Shown: positions 54,712-64,000 of the stretch, in pieces
Position numbering within the stretch: position 1 is the stretch's first letter
How the letters are laid out: every line of letters starts with the position of its first letter
Source of the DNA: Glaciibacter superstes DSM 21135
GTDB taxonomy: Bacteria; Actinomycetota; Actinomycetes; Actinomycetales; Microbacteriaceae
Assembly: GCF_000421145.1 (NCBI RefSeq)
Contig: NZ_ATWH01000002.1
Coordinates: 1 to 64,000, forward strand
Direction of reading: 5' to 3'
Length of the DNA stretch: 64,000 nucleotides
Position numbers and translations under genes: made by a program
Notes under the pieces: model-generated
What the model was told of the DNA's origin: nothing
The model's input: only the letters and a program-made list of their open reading frames with translations
Database searches by the model: none

Positions 54712-55434
54712 TCAACGATCTAAGCGGCTTGCTCGAGTTTTAGAAGCACGTACTCGGGTTCCGTCGTCGAGACGCACCTCGACGCCCCGGCTCGACCTCT
54801 TCACCGCCTGCACCACCCTTCCGGGCCGAAAATCTGTGTGCATGAGGTGGAGACCTCGCAGCTGCGCAGCGATCGGTTCCCCCAGGCTCGCTTGGAGAGG
54901 CAAATCTGCCCGAGCAACCAGGCGTACGTCGGCACCGGCGAACACGCTTGCGGCTTCCGTCCCCACGATTCCGGCCCCGAGCCCGGTCACGGGCCGGCGA
55001 ACTCGGTGCCGATGTGCTCGCGGATACGAACGGCATCGAATGCGCTGTGCAGCGTGAACACTCCGCCGACGCCATCACCCATCGTCGGTTGCGGCGTGCC
55101 GCCCGCGGAGACGACGAGTGCGCGGAATCGGAGGGTCCCCCCACCCTCCGAATGGACGACACTTTCTGCTCGATCCATTCCGGTGGCACGGCCTTGCACA
55201 AACGGTGCGTCCAGTAGTTCGAGGTTCGGGAGAGCTGCTTGTTCAGGGCGAGTAGGCCCGGGAGGATGCCCTTGTCCACCAGAGTGTGGTTGTACGGTGC
55301 GGTCGTCTCGTCGTGCACGATGCAGGCCGTTCCGGTGAAACCTTCGTGGCGCAACGTCATCGCCGCCGCGTGGCCCGCCACCCCGCGCCGATGATGAGCA
55401 CATCGGTGTCCTGCTGGTCCATCGGCTCCCTCAT
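54712..55434 (-). pseudogene. decayed FAD/NAD-dependent oxidoreductase
   Basis: The remains lie in three frames. MDQQDTDVLIIGAG breaks near 55386, where one base is missing, and continues as GHAAAMTLRHEGFTG...PYNHTLVDKGILPGLL to about 55150. A second shift leads to FRALVVSAGGTPQP...GVFTLHSAFDAVRIREH, and a third near 54985 to GLGAGIVGTEAASVFAGADV. The order FAD loop - VSAGG - NAD loop is that of ferredoxin-reductase-like and rhodanese-linked disulfide reductases (about 400 residues); here about 240 codons remain, so the C-terminus is lost too. A CsoR-type operator precedes it. Confidence 0.75.
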
Positions 55435-55767: not shown

Positions 55768-56844
55768 TCATGCTGTAGAGCGTCTAATGCTGCCGCGGCT
55801 TGTCGGGGGCAGGACGCCGTTGCCGAGCGCGGTGAGTTGTTGCGTGTTGGTCAGTTCAAGCTCCTGGTCCGTGACCCAGCCTTCGTCCAAGCCCATGAGC
55901 CATTCCACGAACGAGGGGGCTGGTCGTGGACCAGCCCCCTCGTTCAGGATTGCGGGGGCTGGGGCTGTTCGTCCGGTGATGTGTTCCCATCGGGCGATGG
56001 CTGGGGCGTAGCGTCCCCAGCGTCGAAGAAGTCCGCGATCAACTCTGCCGCCTTCTCCGGTGAAGGCTGTCCGTGGTTGAGTACGAGGTCGATGACCTGA
56101 TGGCTGAGCGCGATCGTCCCGCGGCGAGCTTTCACCTGATCCAGGGTCTCGCCGCCCCTGGACGAGTCCGATGCGAGCGGAGTGCGGAAGAGTGCGGTGA
56201 GCGAGGATGAAGATCCGGAATCTTGGGTGTGGTGCGCCGATCGCGGAAGCGGGTAGACCGATCCATCGTGCATCCATGCCGAGGTCGGCCAGGTCTCCGA
56301 GAACGGCGCCAAGCGCGCGAAGAGGTCGAGCTGACTCGTCTCCCAAGCCCCAAGGATCGAGTTCCAGGTTGCGAAGGGTTGCCTTGCCGGGGGTTGCGGT
56401 TTCGGGGTTGCATCGTTCATCGTCGGTTCCTTCCTGAACGGGGCGGATCGCGGGCGAGGAAAGTAGCCCGCGGACGTTCTCGATGACAACCCACTCAGGT
56501 TGCAACGCGTCGATCGCGGTAGCCATGTTCGCCCAGAGCCCGGAACGTGTTCCTGGGGCGAGGCCGGCGCGTTTGCCGACGGTGGAGACGTCCTGGCAGG
56601 GGAACCCACCGCAGAGGACGTCCACTGGCGGAACCTGATTCCAGTCGATGGTGGTGATGTCGCCGAGGTTCGGGGCGTCGGGCCAGTGGTGGGCGAAGAC
56701 GCGGGCGACAGGCTCGTTGATCTCAGAGAACCACACGGTTCGGGCGTTGAAGGCTTCTTCGACGGCGAGGTCGAGGCCGCCGTATCCGGAGAACAGCGAT
56801 CCGACCCGTAGCCGCTGGTCGGTGATGTCGTTCGGTTCGTGCAT
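55768..56844 (-). CDS. dcm: cytosine-5 DNA methyltransferase
   Basis: Protein of 358 residues. SAM-binding LRVGSLFSGYGGLDLA is at 12-27, the catalytic GGFPCQDVSTVGKR near 80 holds the Cys of the PCQ motif, and VVIENVRGLLS is motif VI. DARWIGLPASAIGAPHPRFR is motif VIII, and LTALGNGV is motif X. The end PTSRGSIRRSTA looks shifted: removing one C from the run of five at 55805-55809 restores RQAAAALDAL, the usual end, with a stop at 55755. The middle (residues about 140-300) overlaps another protein-like frame. It would protect the ICE against restriction or modify host DNA. Confidence 0.88.
   Translation of the reverse strand: MHEPNDITDQRLRVGSLFSGYGGLDLAVEEAFNARTVWFSEINEPVARVFAHHWPDAPNLGDITTIDWNQVPPVDVLCGGFPCQDVSTVGKRAGLAPGTRSGLWANMATAIDALQPEWVVIENVRGLLSSPAIRPVQEGTDDERCNPETATPGKATLRNLELDPWGLGDESARPLRALGAVLGDLADLGMDARWIGLPASAIGAPHPRFRIFILAHRTLPHSARIGLVQGRRDPGSGESSPRDDRAQPSGHRPRTQPRTAFTGEGGRVDRGLLRRWGRYAPAIARWEHITGRTAPAPAILNEGAGPRPAPSFVEWLMGLDEGWVTDQELELTNTQQLTALGNGVLPPTSRGSIRRSTA
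55944..56420 (-). CDS. ORF nested in the methyltransferase gene
   Basis: A 158-residue frame inside dcm, shifted by one base, starts at ATG 56420 with AGGAAGG 8 bases before it. It reads FARLAPFSETWPTSAWMHDG, YPLPRSAHHT, TALFRTPLASDSSRGG and GTIALSHQVIDLVLN, then a Pro-rich end. From memory, segments of the type TW-SGM--G-YPLP plus LLPTP-ASD-RGG occur with phage and mobile-element cytosine methyltransferases. Codon third positions are GC-rich in this frame too. It could be a true overlapping gene, or a piece of the methyltransferase displaced by two frameshifts. Function unknown. Confidence 0.5.
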   Translation of the reverse strand: MNDATPKPQPPARQPFATWNSILGAWETSQLDLFARLAPFSETWPTSAWMHDGSVYPLPRSAHHTQDSGSSSSLTALFRTPLASDSSRGGETLDQVKARRGTIALSHQVIDLVLNHGQPSPEKAAELIADFFDAGDATPQPSPDGNTSPDEQPQPPQS

Positions 56845-57074
56845 GGGGACTCCGCCTGATCGGTGACCTCGGTCGTCATCCGTTCACGGACTCCAGTGCC
56901 GAGCTGGTCACCTGCCAGGTACACGCCCACGCCCCACGCCGAGCAGGCCAGATCACTCATTCCGGACCCACCTGGACCCCTTTTCGCTCACCTCGCTTCT
57001 GAGCCACCACGCGTCTTGCAGATCGAGGTCGCGACCACCCGCGTGTGATTTCTGAAGCCATTGATCCTGCTTGT

Positions 57075-57109: not shown

Positions 57110-60100
57110 GTGACGGTGTCGATGCGGGTGATGTCGGCTGGCGACGGCTACAAGTACCTGCTGCGCACAGTGGCGGCTGGTGACGGCGACCGGGACCTTT
57201 CGACCCCGTTGACGAGGTATTACAACGCGGACGGCACGCCGCCGGGACGCTGGATGGGCAGCGGCCTCCCAACGCTCGGAAGCGGGCAACTCCGCGACAG
57301 TGATGAAGTTACCGAGGCGCAGCTCCAACTGTTGATCGGAATGGGGCGTGACCCTCTCACAGGTGCCCCGCTGGGGCGGGCGTACCCGGCTTACAAGTCC
57401 GTGACTCAACGCGTTGAGGAGCGAGTCGGAACGCTCGATCCCAAGCTGGGGCCGACCGCTCGGGGCCGAGCAGTCGCGGCGATCGAGGCCGCGGAATCCG
57501 AGCGTGGCACACGACGAGCAGTGGCCGGATACGACTTCACCTTCTCCATCCCGAAATCCGCCTCCGTGCTGTGGGCAGTCGCTGACGCAGGAACGCAATC
57601 ACTCATCGTCAACGCACATCACGCGGCGGTTGCAGAAGTGGTTGCGTTCATGGAGCGCGAGGTTGCAGCCACTCGCGCCGGTGCAACCCCTGGGGATGGT
57701 GCCGTTGCGCAGGTCGAGGTACGCGGGCTGATCGCGACAGCCTATGACCACTACGACTCGCGCGCGGGTGACCCCCACCTGCATACGCACGTCGTGATCA
57801 GCAACAAGGTGCAGACCGTGCTCGACAACAAGTGGCGAAGCCTGGACGGGCGCCCCCTCCACGCTGCAACGGTGGCGCTCTCCGAGTTCCACGAAGCGGT
57901 GTTCGCGGATCACCTCACGCGGCTCTTCGGTGTGGAGTGGGAAACACGTGATCGCGGACGAGACCGCAACGCGGCATGGGCCATAGCGAAGGTCCCAGAA
58001 CAACTCGTGTCCGAGTTTTCGTCGCGCTCGCGGCATATCAACGAGGAGAAGGATCGGCTCATCGCCGCGTACGTGGAGAAGCACGGCAGACAACCCTCCC
58101 GCACGACGATCATCAAGCTGCGTGCCCAGGCGGCACTCGCCACACGACCGGAGAAAGAGATCCATTCCCTCGCCGAACTCACCACTGAATGGAGGCATCG
58201 GGCGGGCACGATCCTTGGTGTCGATGCCACTCGCTGGGCACGCGAGGTCACGGCGAATGAGGCGCCGTTGCTCCTGCGCGCTGATGATGTGCCGCTTGAC
58301 GTAGTTCGTGGGCTGGGACAGAGCGTCGTGGCCGCAGTCGGGGAAAAGCGTTCCACTTGGCGCCGCTGGAATCTCACCGCCGAAGCTGCCCGGCAAACGA
58401 TGAGGTACCGTTTCGCCAGCACACGCGATCGCGAAGCGATCATCGGCATGGTTGTCGATGCTGCCGAGGCCGTGTCGATTCGGCTCACGCCGCCCGAACT
58501 GGCATCCAGCCCTGCCATCTTTCGCAGGAGCGATGAATCGTCGGTGTTCCGGCCGAAGAACTCCACGGTGTTCTCGTCGGGTGAGCTGCTCGACGCCGAG
58601 GAGCGCCTGCTTCAACTCGCTCACACAACAACGGGCCCGACCGTCTCGCTGGAGACGGTCGAACGCATCGTGCGGAAGCCCGACCGTGAGGGGTTGGTGC
58701 TCGGGGAAGACCAAGCGTCTGCGCTGACGAAGATCGCTGTCTCCGGTCGTGTCGTTGATCTGCTCGTCGGCCCGGCTGGCGCCGGGAAAACGACCGCCAT
58801 GAACGCACTACGCCGGGCATGGGAAAAGGAACACGGTCAACGATCCGTCGTCGGGCTGGCCCCCTCTTCGAGTGCGGCACAAGTGCTTGCCGAGGATCTC
58901 GGGATCACAACTGAGAACACGGCGAAGTGGTGGCAGAATCACCTGCGAGAAGGTGAGACCTTTCAGTCGGGCCAGCTCGTCATCGTTGATGAAGCGTCAC
59001 TCGCGGGAACGCTTTCCCTGGACCGAATCACCCAGCTTGCTGCTGATGCTGGGGCAAAAGTGTTGCTCGTCGGAGACTACGCGCAGCTCCAGGCTGTCGA
59101 CGCGGGCGGCGCCTTTGGGATGCTCACGCATGATCGTTATGACGTGCCCGAACTTATCGACGTTCACCGCTTCACGCACGACTGGGAAAAGCGTGCGTCC
59201 CTCGATCTTCGCCATGGCCACACCGACGTCATCGACACCTACGACGAGCACCAACGCATCGTTGACGGGGACACCGAGGAAATGATCGATTCAGCGTATA
59301 CCGCCTGGCGCAGCGATCTCGTCGCGGGGCGTGCAACGGTTCTCGTCTCAGACTCCAATGAATCGGTGACCGCACTCAACAACCGAGCGCGCACCGATCT
59401 GATTCTCGATGGCGCCGTTCGCGGGTCACGTGAGTCTGAGCTGCACGATGGAACCCATGCGGCATCCGGAGATATCGTCATCACGCGCCGCAATGACCGC
59501 CGCCTACTGGCAGGGCGAGGCTGGGTGCGCAACGGAGATCGCTGGAACGTCGTCGATGTTCGACGCGATGGATCGATGCTTGTTCGACGGGCTGGAAGTT
59601 CCTGGGGGACCAGCGTTCTTCTGCCAGCCGATTATGTAGCTGAGCACGTCGAACTCGGCTACGCCGTGACATCCTTCCGCGCGCAAGGCCTCACCACCGA
59701 TACTGTACACGTGCTCGTCGACTCGACGATGTCCCGGGAGAACTTCTACGTGGCGATGACACGGGGTCGTGATGCCAACGTCGCCTACGTCGCAGTCGAC
59801 AAGCCCGACCCATCCCACGATGGTCCACATCCTGGTGAGAACGATGAAGTCACCGGCCGCAGCGTTCTCACCGGAGTGCTCCAGCACGTCGGTGCCGAAC
59901 TTTCCGCGCATGAAACGATCGCCGTTGAACAAGAGTCCTGGGGATCGATCGCGCAGCTTGCCGCAGAATACGAGACGATCGCCTCGGCCGCGCAGCGCGA
60001 CCGGTGGGCATCCCTGGTGCGAGCGTCCGGCCTCAGTACAGAAGAAGCCGAGGAGGTCATTAGCTCGGATGCGTTCGACCCCTTGACTGCAGAGCTGCGC

Positions 60101-60667
60101 CGAGCTGAAGCAAACCATCATGACCTGGCCAACTTGCTCCCACGTCTCGTCCGTGCGCGTGGCTTTGGCGATGCGGACGACATCGCTGCCGTCATCCGAC
60201 ACCGAGTTATCGACGCCACCGCGCGACCAGCTGGATCAGGCCGCACACGCAAGGTGCCCAGGCTCATCGCCGGGCTCGTACCCGAAACGATGGGACCGGT
60301 TGCTGGTGACATGCGTCAGGCGCTCGATGAACGTCGTCACCTCATCACGCAGCGAGCCGACGCAGTGCGCGACAAAGCCATCGTCGATGATGCGCAATGG
60401 ATCGCGTCACTCGGTGAAGCTCCCGCTGCCGCATCGGGGCGTGAGAGTTGGCAGCTGGCAGCGCGGACGATCGCCGCGTATCGCGACCGATACGCCGTCA
60501 CGACGCCGAGCCCGCTTGGGCTCCGACCCGAGGCCACGGCGCAGCGAATCGATCACGCGAGGGCCGAAGCAGCACTCACCGAGATCCGCCGTATGAACGC
60601 CGCGGCCAAGGTTGTGCAGTCCCATCGTGAGCCGTCTGAGAGGACTTCGGAGAGGCGGGTGCTCTGA
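57110..60667 (+). CDS. MobF relaxase-helicase (TraA/TrwC-like)
   Basis: Protein of 1185 residues from GTG 57110. The N-terminal relaxase domain (VMSAGDGYKYLLRTVAAGDG; catalytic Tyr near residue 14-16) has the metal-binding HIS cluster in DPHLHTHVVISN near 220. The TraI-type helicase has Walker A VGPAGAGKTTAMNALRRAW near 552 and Walker B LVIVDEASLAG. AVTSFRAQGLTTDTVHVLVD and VAMTRGRDAN are motifs V and VI. The C-terminal part is helical. It nicks oriT and unwinds the strand for transfer. It is on the opposite strand and 9 kb away from the other transfer genes. Confidence 0.95.
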   Translation: MTVSMRVMSAGDGYKYLLRTVAAGDGDRDLSTPLTRYYNADGTPPGRWMGSGLPTLGSGQLRDSDEVTEAQLQLLIGMGRDPLTGAPLGRAYPAYKSVTQRVEERVGTLDPKLGPTARGRAVAAIEAAESERGTRRAVAGYDFTFSIPKSASVLWAVADAGTQSLIVNAHHAAVAEVVAFMEREVAATRAGATPGDGAVAQVEVRGLIATAYDHYDSRAGDPHLHTHVVISNKVQTVLDNKWRSLDGRPLHAATVALSEFHEAVFADHLTRLFGVEWETRDRGRDRNAAWAIAKVPEQLVSEFSSRSRHINEEKDRLIAAYVEKHGRQPSRTTIIKLRAQAALATRPEKEIHSLAELTTEWRHRAGTILGVDATRWAREVTANEAPLLLRADDVPLDVVRGLGQSVVAAVGEKRSTWRRWNLTAEAARQTMRYRFASTRDREAIIGMVVDAAEAVSIRLTPPELASSPAIFRRSDESSVFRPKNSTVFSSGELLDAEERLLQLAHTTTGPTVSLETVERIVRKPDREGLVLGEDQASALTKIAVSGRVVDLLVGPAGAGKTTAMNALRRAWEKEHGQRSVVGLAPSSSAAQVLAEDLGITTENTAKWWQNHLREGETFQSGQLVIVDEASLAGTLSLDRITQLAADAGAKVLLVGDYAQLQAVDAGGAFGMLTHDRYDVPELIDVHRFTHDWEKRASLDLRHGHTDVIDTYDEHQRIVDGDTEEMIDSAYTAWRSDLVAGRATVLVSDSNESVTALNNRARTDLILDGAVRGSRESELHDGTHAASGDIVITRRNDRRLLAGRGWVRNGDRWNVVDVRRDGSMLVRRAGSSWGTSVLLPADYVAEHVELGYAVTSFRAQGLTTDTVHVLVDSTMSRENFYVAMTRGRDANVAYVAVDKPDPSHDGPHPGENDEVTGRSVLTGVLQHVGAELSAHETIAVEQESWGSIAQLAAEYETIASAAQRDRWASLVRASGLSTEEAEEVISSDAFDPLTAELRRAEANHHDLANLLPRLVRARGFGDADDIAAVIRHRVIDATARPAGSGRTRKVPRLIAGLVPETMGPVAGDMRQALDERRHLITQRADAVRDKAIVDDAQWIASLGEAPAAASGRESWQLAARTIAAYRDRYAVTTPSPLGLRPEATAQRIDHARAEAALTEIRRMNAAAKVVQSHREPSERTSERRVL

Positions 60668-60732: not shown

Positions 60733-61740
60733 TTACAGGCCGCGTGAATCGGGTGAGCGACGATCACAAGCTGCAGCGATGCGAAATGCTCGTGACAGCT
60801 CCGTGTTGGGGTCGTTGCTCTTGTCCTCGTCGGCGAGTCGAAGAACGTCTTCGGAACCTGTGAGCAAACGGGCGCGTCTGTCTTGAATAAGGATGTTGGA
60901 GCCATAGCTGGCGGCACTCGTCACGGGGCCAGGAACCGCACCGACTGAGCGACCAAGCTCCACTGCTTCGTTGGCGACACGCAGCGATCCTGACCGCGCC
61001 CCCGCCTCAACGATCACCGTCGTCGAGGAGAGCGCGGCCATAATCCGGCCACGATCGAGAAAGCGCTGCCGTGTTGGCGCAACACCCGGTGCAACCTCAG
61101 AAACGAGGAGACCTTGTTGCTCAATACGCGCAAACAGATCCGCGTGTCCGGCAGGGTATGCGCGATCGACCCCACCCGCGAGGACTGCAATCGTTCTTCC
61201 ACCGGTCGCCAACGCCGACTGGTGTGCGACTGCTTCGATGCCGTAAGCACCACCAGCGACAACGACACGGCCACTGAGCGCGAGGTCACTGGCGAGCTCA
61301 ATCGCCATGTGGTCTCCATACGCTGTGGAGGCGCGCGCACCGGTCAACGTGATGCGGTCGGCTAGAGGCTGGGCCAGCAGCGCAGTCTCGCCACGCGTCC
61401 AAAGTGCATATGGTGTGCGGGCTCCGAGATCGTTGAGGGCGACTGGCCAATCCTCCTCACCCGGAATCAGGACCCGGAGACCTTGTCGCTCGAAGGCTGC
61501 CATCTGTGTGGCCAAGGTGTCGGCGCTGCTCACAGTGTGTAAGCGTTCGCGCCATACTGCCGCTGCGATTTGGTCGAGGCCGGGCACCGCGCCGTCAGCA
61601 TCAGCGAGGCGGAGCAGTTCTACAGCGCCGACTCGGCCAACGAGACGACCGGTCGACGGATCGTTCGGTGGAGCCACGAGCGAGAGAACGGTACGCGCGC
61701 TCCGCTCGTCGTGTCCGAGGGAAGAGAGGGAAGTCATCAT
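60733..61740 (-). CDS. dprA: DprA-like DNA-processing protein
   Basis: Protein of 335 residues. The Rossmann domain has LTGARASTAYGDHMAIELAS, VVAGGAYGIEAVAHQSALAT, TIAVLAGGVDRAYPAGHADL and TVIVEAGARSGSLRVANEAV, the motifs of DprA/Smf. It lacks the C-terminal DML1-like winged helix in any clear form and has a long N-terminal part. DprA loads RecA on incoming single strands; in a conjugative element it may process DNA entering the recipient. It is convergent with the relaxase gene. Chromosomal DprA genes have other neighbours. Confidence 0.88.
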   Translation of the reverse strand: MMTSLSSLGHDERSARTVLSLVAPPNDPSTGRLVGRVGAVELLRLADADGAVPGLDQIAAAVWRERLHTVSSADTLATQMAAFERQGLRVLIPGEEDWPVALNDLGARTPYALWTRGETALLAQPLADRITLTGARASTAYGDHMAIELASDLALSGRVVVAGGAYGIEAVAHQSALATGGRTIAVLAGGVDRAYPAGHADLFARIEQQGLLVSEVAPGVAPTRQRFLDRGRIMAALSSTTVIVEAGARSGSLRVANEAVELGRSVGAVPGPVTSAASYGSNILIQDRRARLLTGSEDVLRLADEDKSNDPNTELSRAFRIAAACDRRSPDSRGL

Positions 61741-62271: not shown

Positions 62272-62678
62272 AGCGCTCGGCAAATTATCTGCGCGATTTG
62301 GCGGCTGCGACCCGCGGGCTGTGATTCCTCGGCGAAGAGCGTTGTCTCATAGGATTGCGGCTATGTGACACTCCAACGAGGAGGTGCCTGCGTGTCCACG
62401 AGCCAGGCCCATTGAATGTCACGGCTGATCGGGCCCGCCACCTGATGTACGTGCGCTTCCTGACCAGGATGGGCCCGCCAGGTCAAACGCGAACGACGCA
62501 AAGGAAATGAAGGTCGTTTCGAGATGGATGGACGCCTGACCGGGTTGAAAGGGCCGCTTTAGCGGTCCAGGTATGTCCTGATCGACAGACGCCCATTCGT
62601 CGGGCATGCTTGGGCAATCAGGTATCTTCCGATTCCGTAGGGGCGCAAGACGAAGCGGTCCTCCAGTTAGGACCACGA
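62272..62678. other. intergenic region before the OLD ATPase
   Basis: No convincing gene is seen. GGGCCCGCCA occurs twice, at 62431-62440 and 62471-62480, flanking DNA that does not translate well. Base composition changes from about here: the DNA to the right is less GC-rich. It may be a junction between the ICE body and a separate insertion, or an ordinary promoter region. Confidence 0.4.
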
Positions 62679-64000
62679 ATGCCCCCGGACATCGCGCCAT
62701 CAATCGATGCGTCTCGGCCGGAAGCTCCTGCAACTCCAGCGCCGCTGCGCGTCAGCAACATCAGCGTGAGGAACTTCAGGCTTCTGCATAAGGTGGACGT
62801 CGCTCTCAGCGATAGTGCAACGGTACTGGTGGGGCGCAACAACACAGGGAAGACCTCATTGGCGGAGGTCATGTCGCGGTTCTTCCAAAAGACGAGCTTC
62901 AAGCTGGCTCTTGCTGACTTCTCGTCCGAGACGTATGACCAGTTTCGTCGTGCCTGCGAGTTGTATCTCGATCACAACGAAGACGCGGCCAGAGATGCGT
63001 TACCGACGATCACATTGACGATCAACATCGCGTACGACCCGAAACTTCCTGAGTACGGACCGTTGTCTGCTCTCATCGTCGATCTCGATTTGAGCTGCAA
63101 TGAGGCTAGAGTCCAATTCGACTATGCGCTCGAAGGGGGGCGCTTGAAGGAGTTCTTTGAAGGGATCTCCCTGGACCCGACAACTGGCGCATTACCAAGT
63201 ACCGTGACAGTGCTTGACGCTGTAGGCGACCGAATTCCCAAACTTTTCAAACGAACGATCGCAGCAGTTGACCCGAACGACTCGTCGAACACGAGAGAAG
63301 TTACGCTCGATGCAGTTCGCAAACTCATCACAGTTGATTTCTTGCAAGCACAGCGTGGACTGGACGACGAAAAAGAGCGCCCAAAGGACTTAATCGGGCA
63401 GATCTTTCAGTCACTCTTTACCGCTGCATCAAACGCAGAAGACGATACCGCCCAGCGCCGGACCGCCGACGATCTTGCAAAAGCCGTGGAGGGAATTGAG
63501 ACGCAACTTGGCGCTCAGGTAGGGCGCATGGTTGCTGGCGTCATTCCGACGCTCGAACGATTCGGATATCCCGGTTTGCATGACCAGGAACTTGAGACGA
63601 AGACCAAACTTGACATTGAACGATTGCTCTCGAATTACACGAGCGTCCACTATCGCGGGGTAGCAGGAGTTTCACTCCCAGAGTCGTACAGCGGACTCGG
63701 CTCACGGAATCTCATCTTGATTCTCCTGACTCTCCTGAGCTATTACAGGGAGTACGCGGCCAGGGGCAACACCCCAGGTGTTCATCTCGTTTTTGTGGAA
63801 GAGCCCGAAGCTCATTTACATCCGCAGATGCAGGAAGTTTTCATCGATCAACTGAGCAGTCTCGCGAAACTGTTCCCTGGCATCGATAAGACCAGTCAGG
63901 ATTGGTCGGCCCAATTCTTGGTGTCCACCCATTCTTCGCATGTCGCCAACAAGGCACCGTTCTCGGCGATTCGATACTTCCGCCTGGCTCGTGCCGTGAC
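62679..64000 (+). CDS. OLD-family AAA ATPase (partial, runs off the edge)
   Basis: The first 440 residues of a protein cut by the window edge, from ATG 62679 (TTAGGA before it). After a Pro/Ala-rich start, ISVRNFRLLHKVDVALSDSA and the Walker A GRNNTGKTSLAEV (from about residue 52) open an SMC/RecF-like ATPase. SYSGLGSRNLILILLTLLSY is signature-like, VHLVFVEEPEAHLHPQMQE is Walker B with the OLD pattern, and FLVSTHSSHVANKAPF follows. A TOPRIM nuclease domain is expected next but is not visible. OLD proteins act in phage defence, alone or in Gabija-like pairs. Its codons are less GC-rich than the genes around it. Confidence 0.88.
   Translation, partial: MPPDIAPSIDASRPEAPATPAPLRVSNISVRNFRLLHKVDVALSDSATVLVGRNNTGKTSLAEVMSRFFQKTSFKLALADFSSETYDQFRRACELYLDHNEDAARDALPTITLTINIAYDPKLPEYGPLSALIVDLDLSCNEARVQFDYALEGGRLKEFFEGISLDPTTGALPSTVTVLDAVGDRIPKLFKRTIAAVDPNDSSNTREVTLDAVRKLITVDFLQAQRGLDDEKERPKDLIGQIFQSLFTAASNAEDDTAQRRTADDLAKAVEGIETQLGAQVGRMVAGVIPTLERFGYPGLHDQELETKTKLDIERLLSNYTSVHYRGVAGVSLPESYSGLGSRNLILILLTLLSYYREYAARGNTPGVHLVFVEEPEAHLHPQMQEVFIDQLSSLAKLFPGIDKTSQDWSAQFLVSTHSSHVANKAPFSAIRYFRLARAV

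Follow-up and report, generated by a model that had tools for sequence, protein, structure and literature searches.

A cytosine-5 DNA methyltransferase gene of Glaciibacter superstes with a conserved overlapping frame that probably encodes a second chain of the enzyme

The cytosine-5 DNA methyltransferase gene dcm in the DNA analysed here (the window, a stretch of 64,000 nucleotides from contig NZ_ATWH01000002.1 of Glaciibacter superstes DSM 21135) contains, in another frame, a second open reading frame of 158 codons, which raises the question of whether the same bases encode two proteins and, if so, whether both belong to one enzyme. Few long, conserved overlaps on one strand are known among cellular and phage genes, and claims of such overlaps usually meet with doubt. 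The preliminary description of this DNA offered two explanations, a genuine dual-coding pair in which the second protein works with the methyltransferase, or two compensating frameshifts that had moved a family segment out of frame. Comparison of homologous loci makes dual coding close to certain, and the locus probably specifies a cytosine-5 DNA methyltransferase made of two polypeptides that share one overlapped gene.

The catalytic frame (frame A, 55768-56844, minus strand, 358 codons) carries motifs I-VIII followed by IX-X. It matches PF00145 with the catalytic fold (E 4.8e-33), the only match to this family in the genome, scores 106.8 bits against TIGR00675 (cutoff 100.65), and has HhaI as its top relative in the PDB. 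Motifs PCQ (IV), ENV (VI), VIII, IX and X can all be located in it. On the minus strand these are motif IV with the catalytic Cys (GGFPCQDVS, 56584-56610), motif VI (ENVRGLLS, 56458-56481), a motif VII-VIII region running from RPLRALGAVLGDL to GAPHPRFRIFILAH (56197-56328), a motif IX equivalent (APSFVEWLMGLDEGWVTD, 55867-55920) and motif X (LTALGNGVLPP, 55804-55836), with about 60 residues between VIII and IX. Motif VIII itself (GAPHPRFR, 56206-56238, minus strand) bears out the earlier observation that the dcm frame keeps this segment in the DNA shared with the nested frame.

The nested frame (frame B, 55944-56420, minus strand) lies wholly within A and one base downstream of its frame (+1), with an ATG at 56420, a stop at 55944-55946 and a putative Shine-Dalgarno sequence, AGGAAGG (56429-56435, minus strand), 8 nt upstream of the ATG; the coordinates first given for the 158-codon frame and its AGGAAGG site were confirmed. 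The predicted product is a TWNP / TWP / LxTPxASD protein of 158 residues. Its core, FSETWPTSAWMHDGSVYPLP (56244-56303, minus strand), is dual-coded with motif VII-VIII of A and includes the TWPTSAWMHDG segment, which falls beside motif VIII; the TWNP and TWP segments share bases with the motif VII-VIII region, and the motif IX equivalent of A lies past the B stop. A later part of B, from LFRTPLASDSSRGG to RRGTIALSHQVIDLVL (56079-56192, minus strand), coincides with the stretch of A between motifs VIII and IX. The match of B to phrog_1008 (E 1e-12) covers residues 65-149 of that family, its N-terminal part, and the statement in the preliminary description that segments of the type TW-SGM-G-YPLP...LLPTP-ASD accompany many phage methyltransferases was right. 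There is no match to B in Pfam up to E 1, HNH included, and none in NCBIfam or PADLOC at the thresholds used. The length of the frame is in itself little proof of coding in DNA so rich in GC, where frame B stays open upstream of its start (338 codons counted from an ATG at 56960), and the ATG at 56420 is singled out because this start and its Shine-Dalgarno sequence are kept in relatives.

Searches with B (tblastn) recovered 222 phage records, 3 plasmids and 16 genome loci, and matches occur in 31 of 398 genomes of the window's family, its own included; within the genus, B is present in the window's own genome alone out of 57, the distribution that a mobile gene would be expected to show. Among 147 loci in a profile survey, 135 have both the B core and A motif VII-VIII, and B lies at +1 in all 135, while 8 loci have B only and 4 have no B profile match. 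The outcome that would have spoken against dual coding, homologues keeping only one open frame, was not obtained. Both frames are open in 133 of the 135. Viral loci chosen by their A protein in two scans of viral contigs have B at +1 in 159 of 160 cases, a figure that concerns near relatives of the A chains used as seeds, since these seeds (A5 and A6) were built from B-bearing loci and the best 80 of 597 and the best 80 of 590 relatives were taken. For the viral contigs a single query (P0001) gave no match and an alignment query was needed. The sole exception among the 160 (L183) is cut by a contig end before motif VI, and the 158 readable loci fall into 146 distinct groups, only 6 of which are common to the loci found through B. 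Nine further named loci with 36-70% GC, from phages of Lacticaseibacillus, Acinetobacter, Paenibacillus, Synechococcus, Microcystis and Mycobacterium and from plasmids of Bacteroides, Methylorubrum and Shinella, all have B at +1. In total, B lies at exactly +1 in 300 of 300 loci in which A and B are readable, equivalent to 259 distinct groups when loci sharing a 60-base stretch in motif VII-VIII are merged. Members of the overlapped class come from Actinobacteria, Proteobacteria, Firmicutes, Bacteroidetes and Cyanobacteria, or from phages of these groups.

The fixed offset bears directly on the reading in which two compensating frameshifts, or sequencing errors, produced the arrangement and only one of the two proteins is real. 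Frame breaks in A do occur in some copies (L003, L018, L034, L041, L043), but motif VII-VIII of A and the TWP core of B lie on the same bases in divergent homologues, and no joining of the frames yields both. Together with the +1 offset in 300 of 300 loci from many assemblies and with constraint on both frames, this refutes the frameshift reading, to which we attach scarcely any probability, and the dual-coding alternative, with the shared bases conserved in both frames across many divergent loci and the offset always +1, is the one that gains support.

Some copies are damaged. An apparent +2 offset in L022, L046 and L049 was rejected, the local offset being +1 in the profile survey and an indel or break having shifted the anchor; these are damaged copies in which A and B have shifted together and the local +1 is kept. 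A is interrupted by four stops in L022 and L046, apparently one copy fetched twice, and by one in L033, and a stop falls within the B profile match in 6 of 78 A5-seeded loci. In L003, a Microbacterium plasmid (NZ_CP072877.1), the A frame is shifted near its start, and the PLSDB gene table, which is incomplete, lists only B (WP_187326295.1, hypothetical) and no A.

Out-of-frame long reading frames are common in GC-rich DNA, and the +1 frame could in principle be a by-product of GC-rich codon bias and of A motifs read out of frame. Codon shuffles that preserve the A protein do reach a mean of 23-25 bits against the B profile, which shows that some signal leaks from A and that weak B matches are to be distrusted. 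The real B frame nevertheless scores above every one of 50 such shuffles in 246 of 247 tests (80/80, 78/78, 80/80 and 8/9 in four sets, between which a few contigs are shared), with median scores of 95, 77, 73 and 56 bits in the respective sets; the single failure is L316, at 37.4 versus 39.6 bits. Against a viral-only profile built outside the window clade, the window's B reaches 86.9 bits and its 50 shuffles at most 34.9, and with this profile the real B is above all shuffles in 37 of 37 window-clade loci. With a profile that included the window the scores are 137 versus 52, and the B frame is free of stops in 40% of the shuffles. The pair is also open at 36-45% GC, in the Bacteroides, Acinetobacter, Paenibacillus and Lacticaseibacillus loci.

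Ordinary methyltransferases lack this signal. A control sample of Actinobacterial methyltransferases (30 loci taken, from matches in 34 of 119 genomes) contains 26 that match PF00145 end to end, and all 26 are without B, the best score being 7.2 bits. Among the remaining four, which match over half the length, two are without B, one (L345, in a genome already matched in an earlier scan) has a strong B at 99.8 bits, and one (L340) has a weak B at 21.8 bits, within what leaks from A.

Conservation of the encoded residues points the same way. In 25 of 31 homologues, B-frame identity in the overlap is 7.3-11.1 standard deviations above the null of A-preserving shuffles, and in the same 25 it exceeds both the third frame (4.4-8.5, values lifted by conservation of the DNA as such) and the B frame in the DNA that precedes B (1.6-6.7). 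The other six comparisons are distant or damaged (L008, z 4.3; L022, L046, L051, L053 and L054, z 0.4-2.6). Codon-position analysis used 25 window-clade loci, the window included, after 7 of 32 were dropped as distant, damaged or near-duplicate (L008, L022, L037, L046, L051, L053, L054). Mismatch at A codon positions 1/2/3 is.155/.125/.376 before B,.300/.186/.274 inside B and.261/.230/.594 after B, a pattern of A alone, then of both frames mixed, then of A alone again, and variation at fourfold sites falls from.436 before B to.247 inside it and rises to.632 after it. Over A codons 210-255 the usual order is inverted, position 1 of A (the third of B) varying at.38-.55 and position 3 (the second of B) at.11-.14, which indicates that B is the constrained frame there and A a free linker. 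The same inversion follows motif VIII in three clades, with position 1 versus 3 mismatches of.321/.155,.306/.180 and.389/.196, values that are pairwise and come from pairs that are not independent. These codon-position substitutions, the kind of constraint check in both frames that the preliminary description had proposed, show both A and B, as far as alignments can tell, to be under purifying selection over the same bases. With B the constrained frame after motif VIII and 26 ordinary methyltransferases free of such a signal, the by-product reading is refuted and its probability is negligible.

B also has its own conserved start codon and predicted ribosome-binding site. The ATG at which B begins in the window clade follows GGAAGGAGACGACG or a close variant of it. 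Of the 41 loci numbered up to L049, which include partial copies and five phages, 27 fit a simple pattern for a GGAAGGAG-type site before the ATG. In the phage-type loci, the first B start lies some 40-57 bases further upstream relative to motif VI than in the window clade, as a GTG 13 bases after the start of the ENVRG Arg codon in 53 of 82 loci or as an ATG within motif VI in 20 of 82. In 60 of 76 unique loci of this type the Arg of motif VI is AGA or AGG, as against 189 of 1177 Arg codons elsewhere (Fisher p 1e-30); four codons past it, the Ser is AGT in 56 of 75, as against 56 of 729. These choices spell a putative ribosome-binding site and the GTG start of B. The window clade, in which the first B start past motif VI lies 46-55 nt downstream of the Arg codon in 23 of 28 loci, uses AGR for this Arg in none of 27. 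The choice of Arg codon thus tracks the B start, and the signals for B appear to sit in synonymous choices of the catalytic motif of A and to move with the start. The conserved start signals, the codon-position pattern and the A-preserving shuffles all point to translation of both frames. In the general phage class, as in L230, L271, L282 and L289, the B frame extends upstream of the B core over the PCQD motif of A, often reading SPARTS or SPAKTS.

A programmed ribosomal frameshift from A into B, giving one fused product, is an option raised for the gp6/gp7 genes of Corndog-type phages (PMC4351075), and such a shift would give a full-length chain wherever A ends shortly past motif VIII and IX-X are in B (both motifs are in B in 36 of 259 distinct loci). 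A shift after motif VIII would, on the other hand, lose the most conserved part of B, which overlaps VII-VIII, and the ribosome-binding site and start of B written into the codons of A also argue against fusion. In 73 of 131 loci, no more than 20 codons separate B from a preceding stop in its own frame (or from the contig end), and in the window A already has IX-X. A fused product is accordingly very unlikely, and independent initiation on B is the reading retained here.

Whether the two proteins act together can be judged from the distribution of motifs IX and X. Both are in A, as in the window, in 71 of 259 distinct loci; X is in A and IX in B in 65; and both are in B in 36. The other 87 show none of these three layouts cleanly: in 50 only X was found, in A, in 24 neither motif was found, and 13 are of other kinds. 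Strict patterns and contig ends account for part of this. A FastTree tree of motifs I-VIII (174 rows, 67 of 170 inner branches poorly supported) requires at least 11 changes of layout, and the starred branches force 8, 3 and 8 changes for the single labels. Compact phage pairs such as L112 have an A that ends a few residues past motif VIII and a B of 204 residues with TWP, IX and X, and a B of this kind must carry whatever recognises the target because A ends so near VIII. That IX-X sit on either chain or are divided between the two, and have changed place at least 11 times on this tree, makes it very likely that A and B form one enzyme. The same exchange of IX-X strongly suggests, as the dual-coding alternative had supposed, that B works with the methyltransferase, and it is highly probable that B is the partner of A.

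B might instead be translated but have a separate job, for instance as a regulator or an anti-restriction protein, and merely share its DNA with A. This would fit the window-clade B, which is without IX-X and ends before them, and the lack of any Pfam, NCBIfam or PADLOC family. The same B core, however, runs on into IX or IX-X in 101 of 259 distinct loci (65 + 36), the loci chosen by A as near relatives of B-bearing seeds have B at +1 in 159 of 160, and phrog_1008 joins the B core to a methyltransferase C-terminus. A separate function is therefore unlikely, and a role for B within the enzyme is preferred. As the window-clade B is without motif IX, it cannot be needed there to supply it, and A, which has every named motif, might be active by itself.

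What B would contribute is suggested by its position. At the place of the target-recognition domain, the stretch of about 60 residues from VIII to IX, conservation over codons 210-255 is in the B frame and not in A, and the balance tips slightly towards B being a specificity subunit. Structure prediction with AlphaFold2 gave N-terminal beta strands and no reliable fold for either of two B proteins, the window B alone (pLDDT 57.3, pTM 0.31) or a compact phage B with IX-X (pLDDT 68.9, pTM 0.43). In a Foldseek search of predicted B against the PDB, none of 28 matches reached E<=0.001, the weak matches including overlaps of 36-60 columns with DNMT3-family methyltransferase chains. Against BFVD there were 6 matches at E<=0.001, the named ones being mostly phage 'DNA methylase' or methyltransferase proteins, and the B profile had no meaningful match in the PDB (best E 0.58).

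In the preferred reading of a two-chain enzyme, frame A would yield the catalytic chain (I-VIII, then IX-X) and frame B the 158-residue second protein, with ribosomes initiating independently on B inside the A message. The two chains would assemble into one enzyme in which B supplies or shapes the part that is not conserved in the A frame, at the place of the target-recognition domain, and thereby holds or completes target recognition. A step further, the product could serve as an orphan modification enzyme that belongs to an integrated conjugative element and marks the DNA of this element against host restriction.

The neighbourhood of the pair is relevant to this last step. A TrwC-type relaxase/helicase (57110-60667, plus strand; PF08751, E 2e-88) is divergent from it, and a TrwC relaxase adjoins the pair in 26 loci besides the window (23 distinct), many loci being too short to tell. 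This neighbour suggests a family of actinobacterial conjugative elements, and we infer that such an element carries its own protective methyltransferase. On the other side is the remnant of an FAD/NAD-dependent oxidoreductase (54712-55403, minus strand), of which 54712-54990 matches Pyr_redox_2 (E 4e-7); the reading frames at 54740-55381 and 54987-55403 have no Pfam match and by eye resemble the rest of the oxidoreductase in other frames, and the remnant may be a gene broken where the element ends. A DprA homologue (60733-61740, minus strand) follows the relaxase, and an AAA_15 ATPase (62610-63998, plus strand; PF13175, E 9e-51) that runs off the window end, presumably OLD-like, is a possible defence gene.

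The closest known enzymes are M.EcoHK31I and M.AquI. In M.EcoHK31I, an m5C enzyme recognising YGGCCR, the gene for the small chain lies within that for the large chain and is read in a different frame, and the window resembles it in this respect, the second polypeptide being encoded in an alternative frame inside the large-subunit gene. According to the account in PMC3404938, M.EcoHK31I consists of a large polypeptide with I-VIII and X and a small one with IX, and M.AquI of two polypeptides split in the variable region into I-VIII and IX-X; the title of reference 18 in that paper states that both proteins of M.EcoHK31I are required in vitro. By its described motif split, M.EcoHK31I has the layout of 65 of the 259 distinct relatives, and M.AquI, with IX-X in the second chain, that of 36. 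Unlike M.EcoHK31I, the window's A keeps both IX and X and its B has neither; unlike M.AquI, the relatives overlap over VII-VIII at a fixed +1, and the window itself is without the AquI split. The same account places the predicted target-recognition domain of M.EcoHK31I in the large subunit (PMC3404938), which does not favour the reading of B as a target-recognition part.

The arrangement in the window is also that of the overlapping methylase genes gp6/gp7 of Corndog-type phages, in which the strongest ribosome-binding site and coding potential of the second gene lie inside the first, and for which the authors left two products, a frameshift, a hop or an intron undecided (PMC4351075). That passage reports no comparative codon-level test and, for comparable arrangements, refers to a paper on the Halobacterium phage phiH. 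A Cluster O relative, Catdawg (L314), has B at +1, and the comparison presented here answers the question left open for these phages between two products and a frameshift. In the PHROGs database, phrog_1008, to which B and all 47 members of alignment A3 match, is listed as 'DNA methyltransferase' in a one-line description that names no overlapping catalytic chain. The overlap is likewise not described in the sections available of PMC3439449, PMC6456624, PMC4574080, PMC6070908, PMC2884959, PMC4524720 and PMC10885494, and within the open-licence literature, which was without the primary EcoHK31I papers, no paper treating the overlapped class was found beyond the PMC4351075 passage, a statement about that literature and not a claim of absence from print.

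New here are how widely the class occurs, the constancy of its +1 offset, the movement of IX-X between the chains and the variant with IX and X both in A. It is moderately probable that a large class in phages and mobile elements is obligatorily dual-coded, with VII-VIII and a specificity-subunit domain at a fixed +1, starts embedded in the ENV codons and IX-X moved repeatedly by frame changes. If true, two domains of one enzyme would have evolved in the same DNA since ancient times, in a case sampled many times over. The overlap is testable in hundreds of loci. The natural series of split methyltransferases, with the same C-terminal motifs on either chain, would be useful for engineering split enzymes and for studying the evolution of overlapping genes under two constraints.

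The overlap also explains the uneven annotation of A and B. Among 13 annotated records, both genes are present in 3, A with a shortened B in 2, A alone in 6, and only B or part of it in 2. The record of Paenibacillus phage Genki annotates both nested genes; in Abidatro, gp41 is annotated to start past the end of gp40, and the B core is cut off.

A second reading frame out of frame within a phage methylase gene is likewise described for ShiLan, where it is an inserted homing endonuclease whose HNH domain lies between conserved residues (PMC11855218). This was considered for B and rejected, as B is without an HNH match, is not an insert and overlaps VII-VIII. The record of ORF067b of phage ArV1 (L005) notes similarity to gp65 of phage DLane, and gp65 of ShiLan is named in that account as the methylase hosting the out-of-frame endonuclease (PMC11855218). 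From this gp65 lead, the ShiLan host gene may itself belong to the overlapped class.
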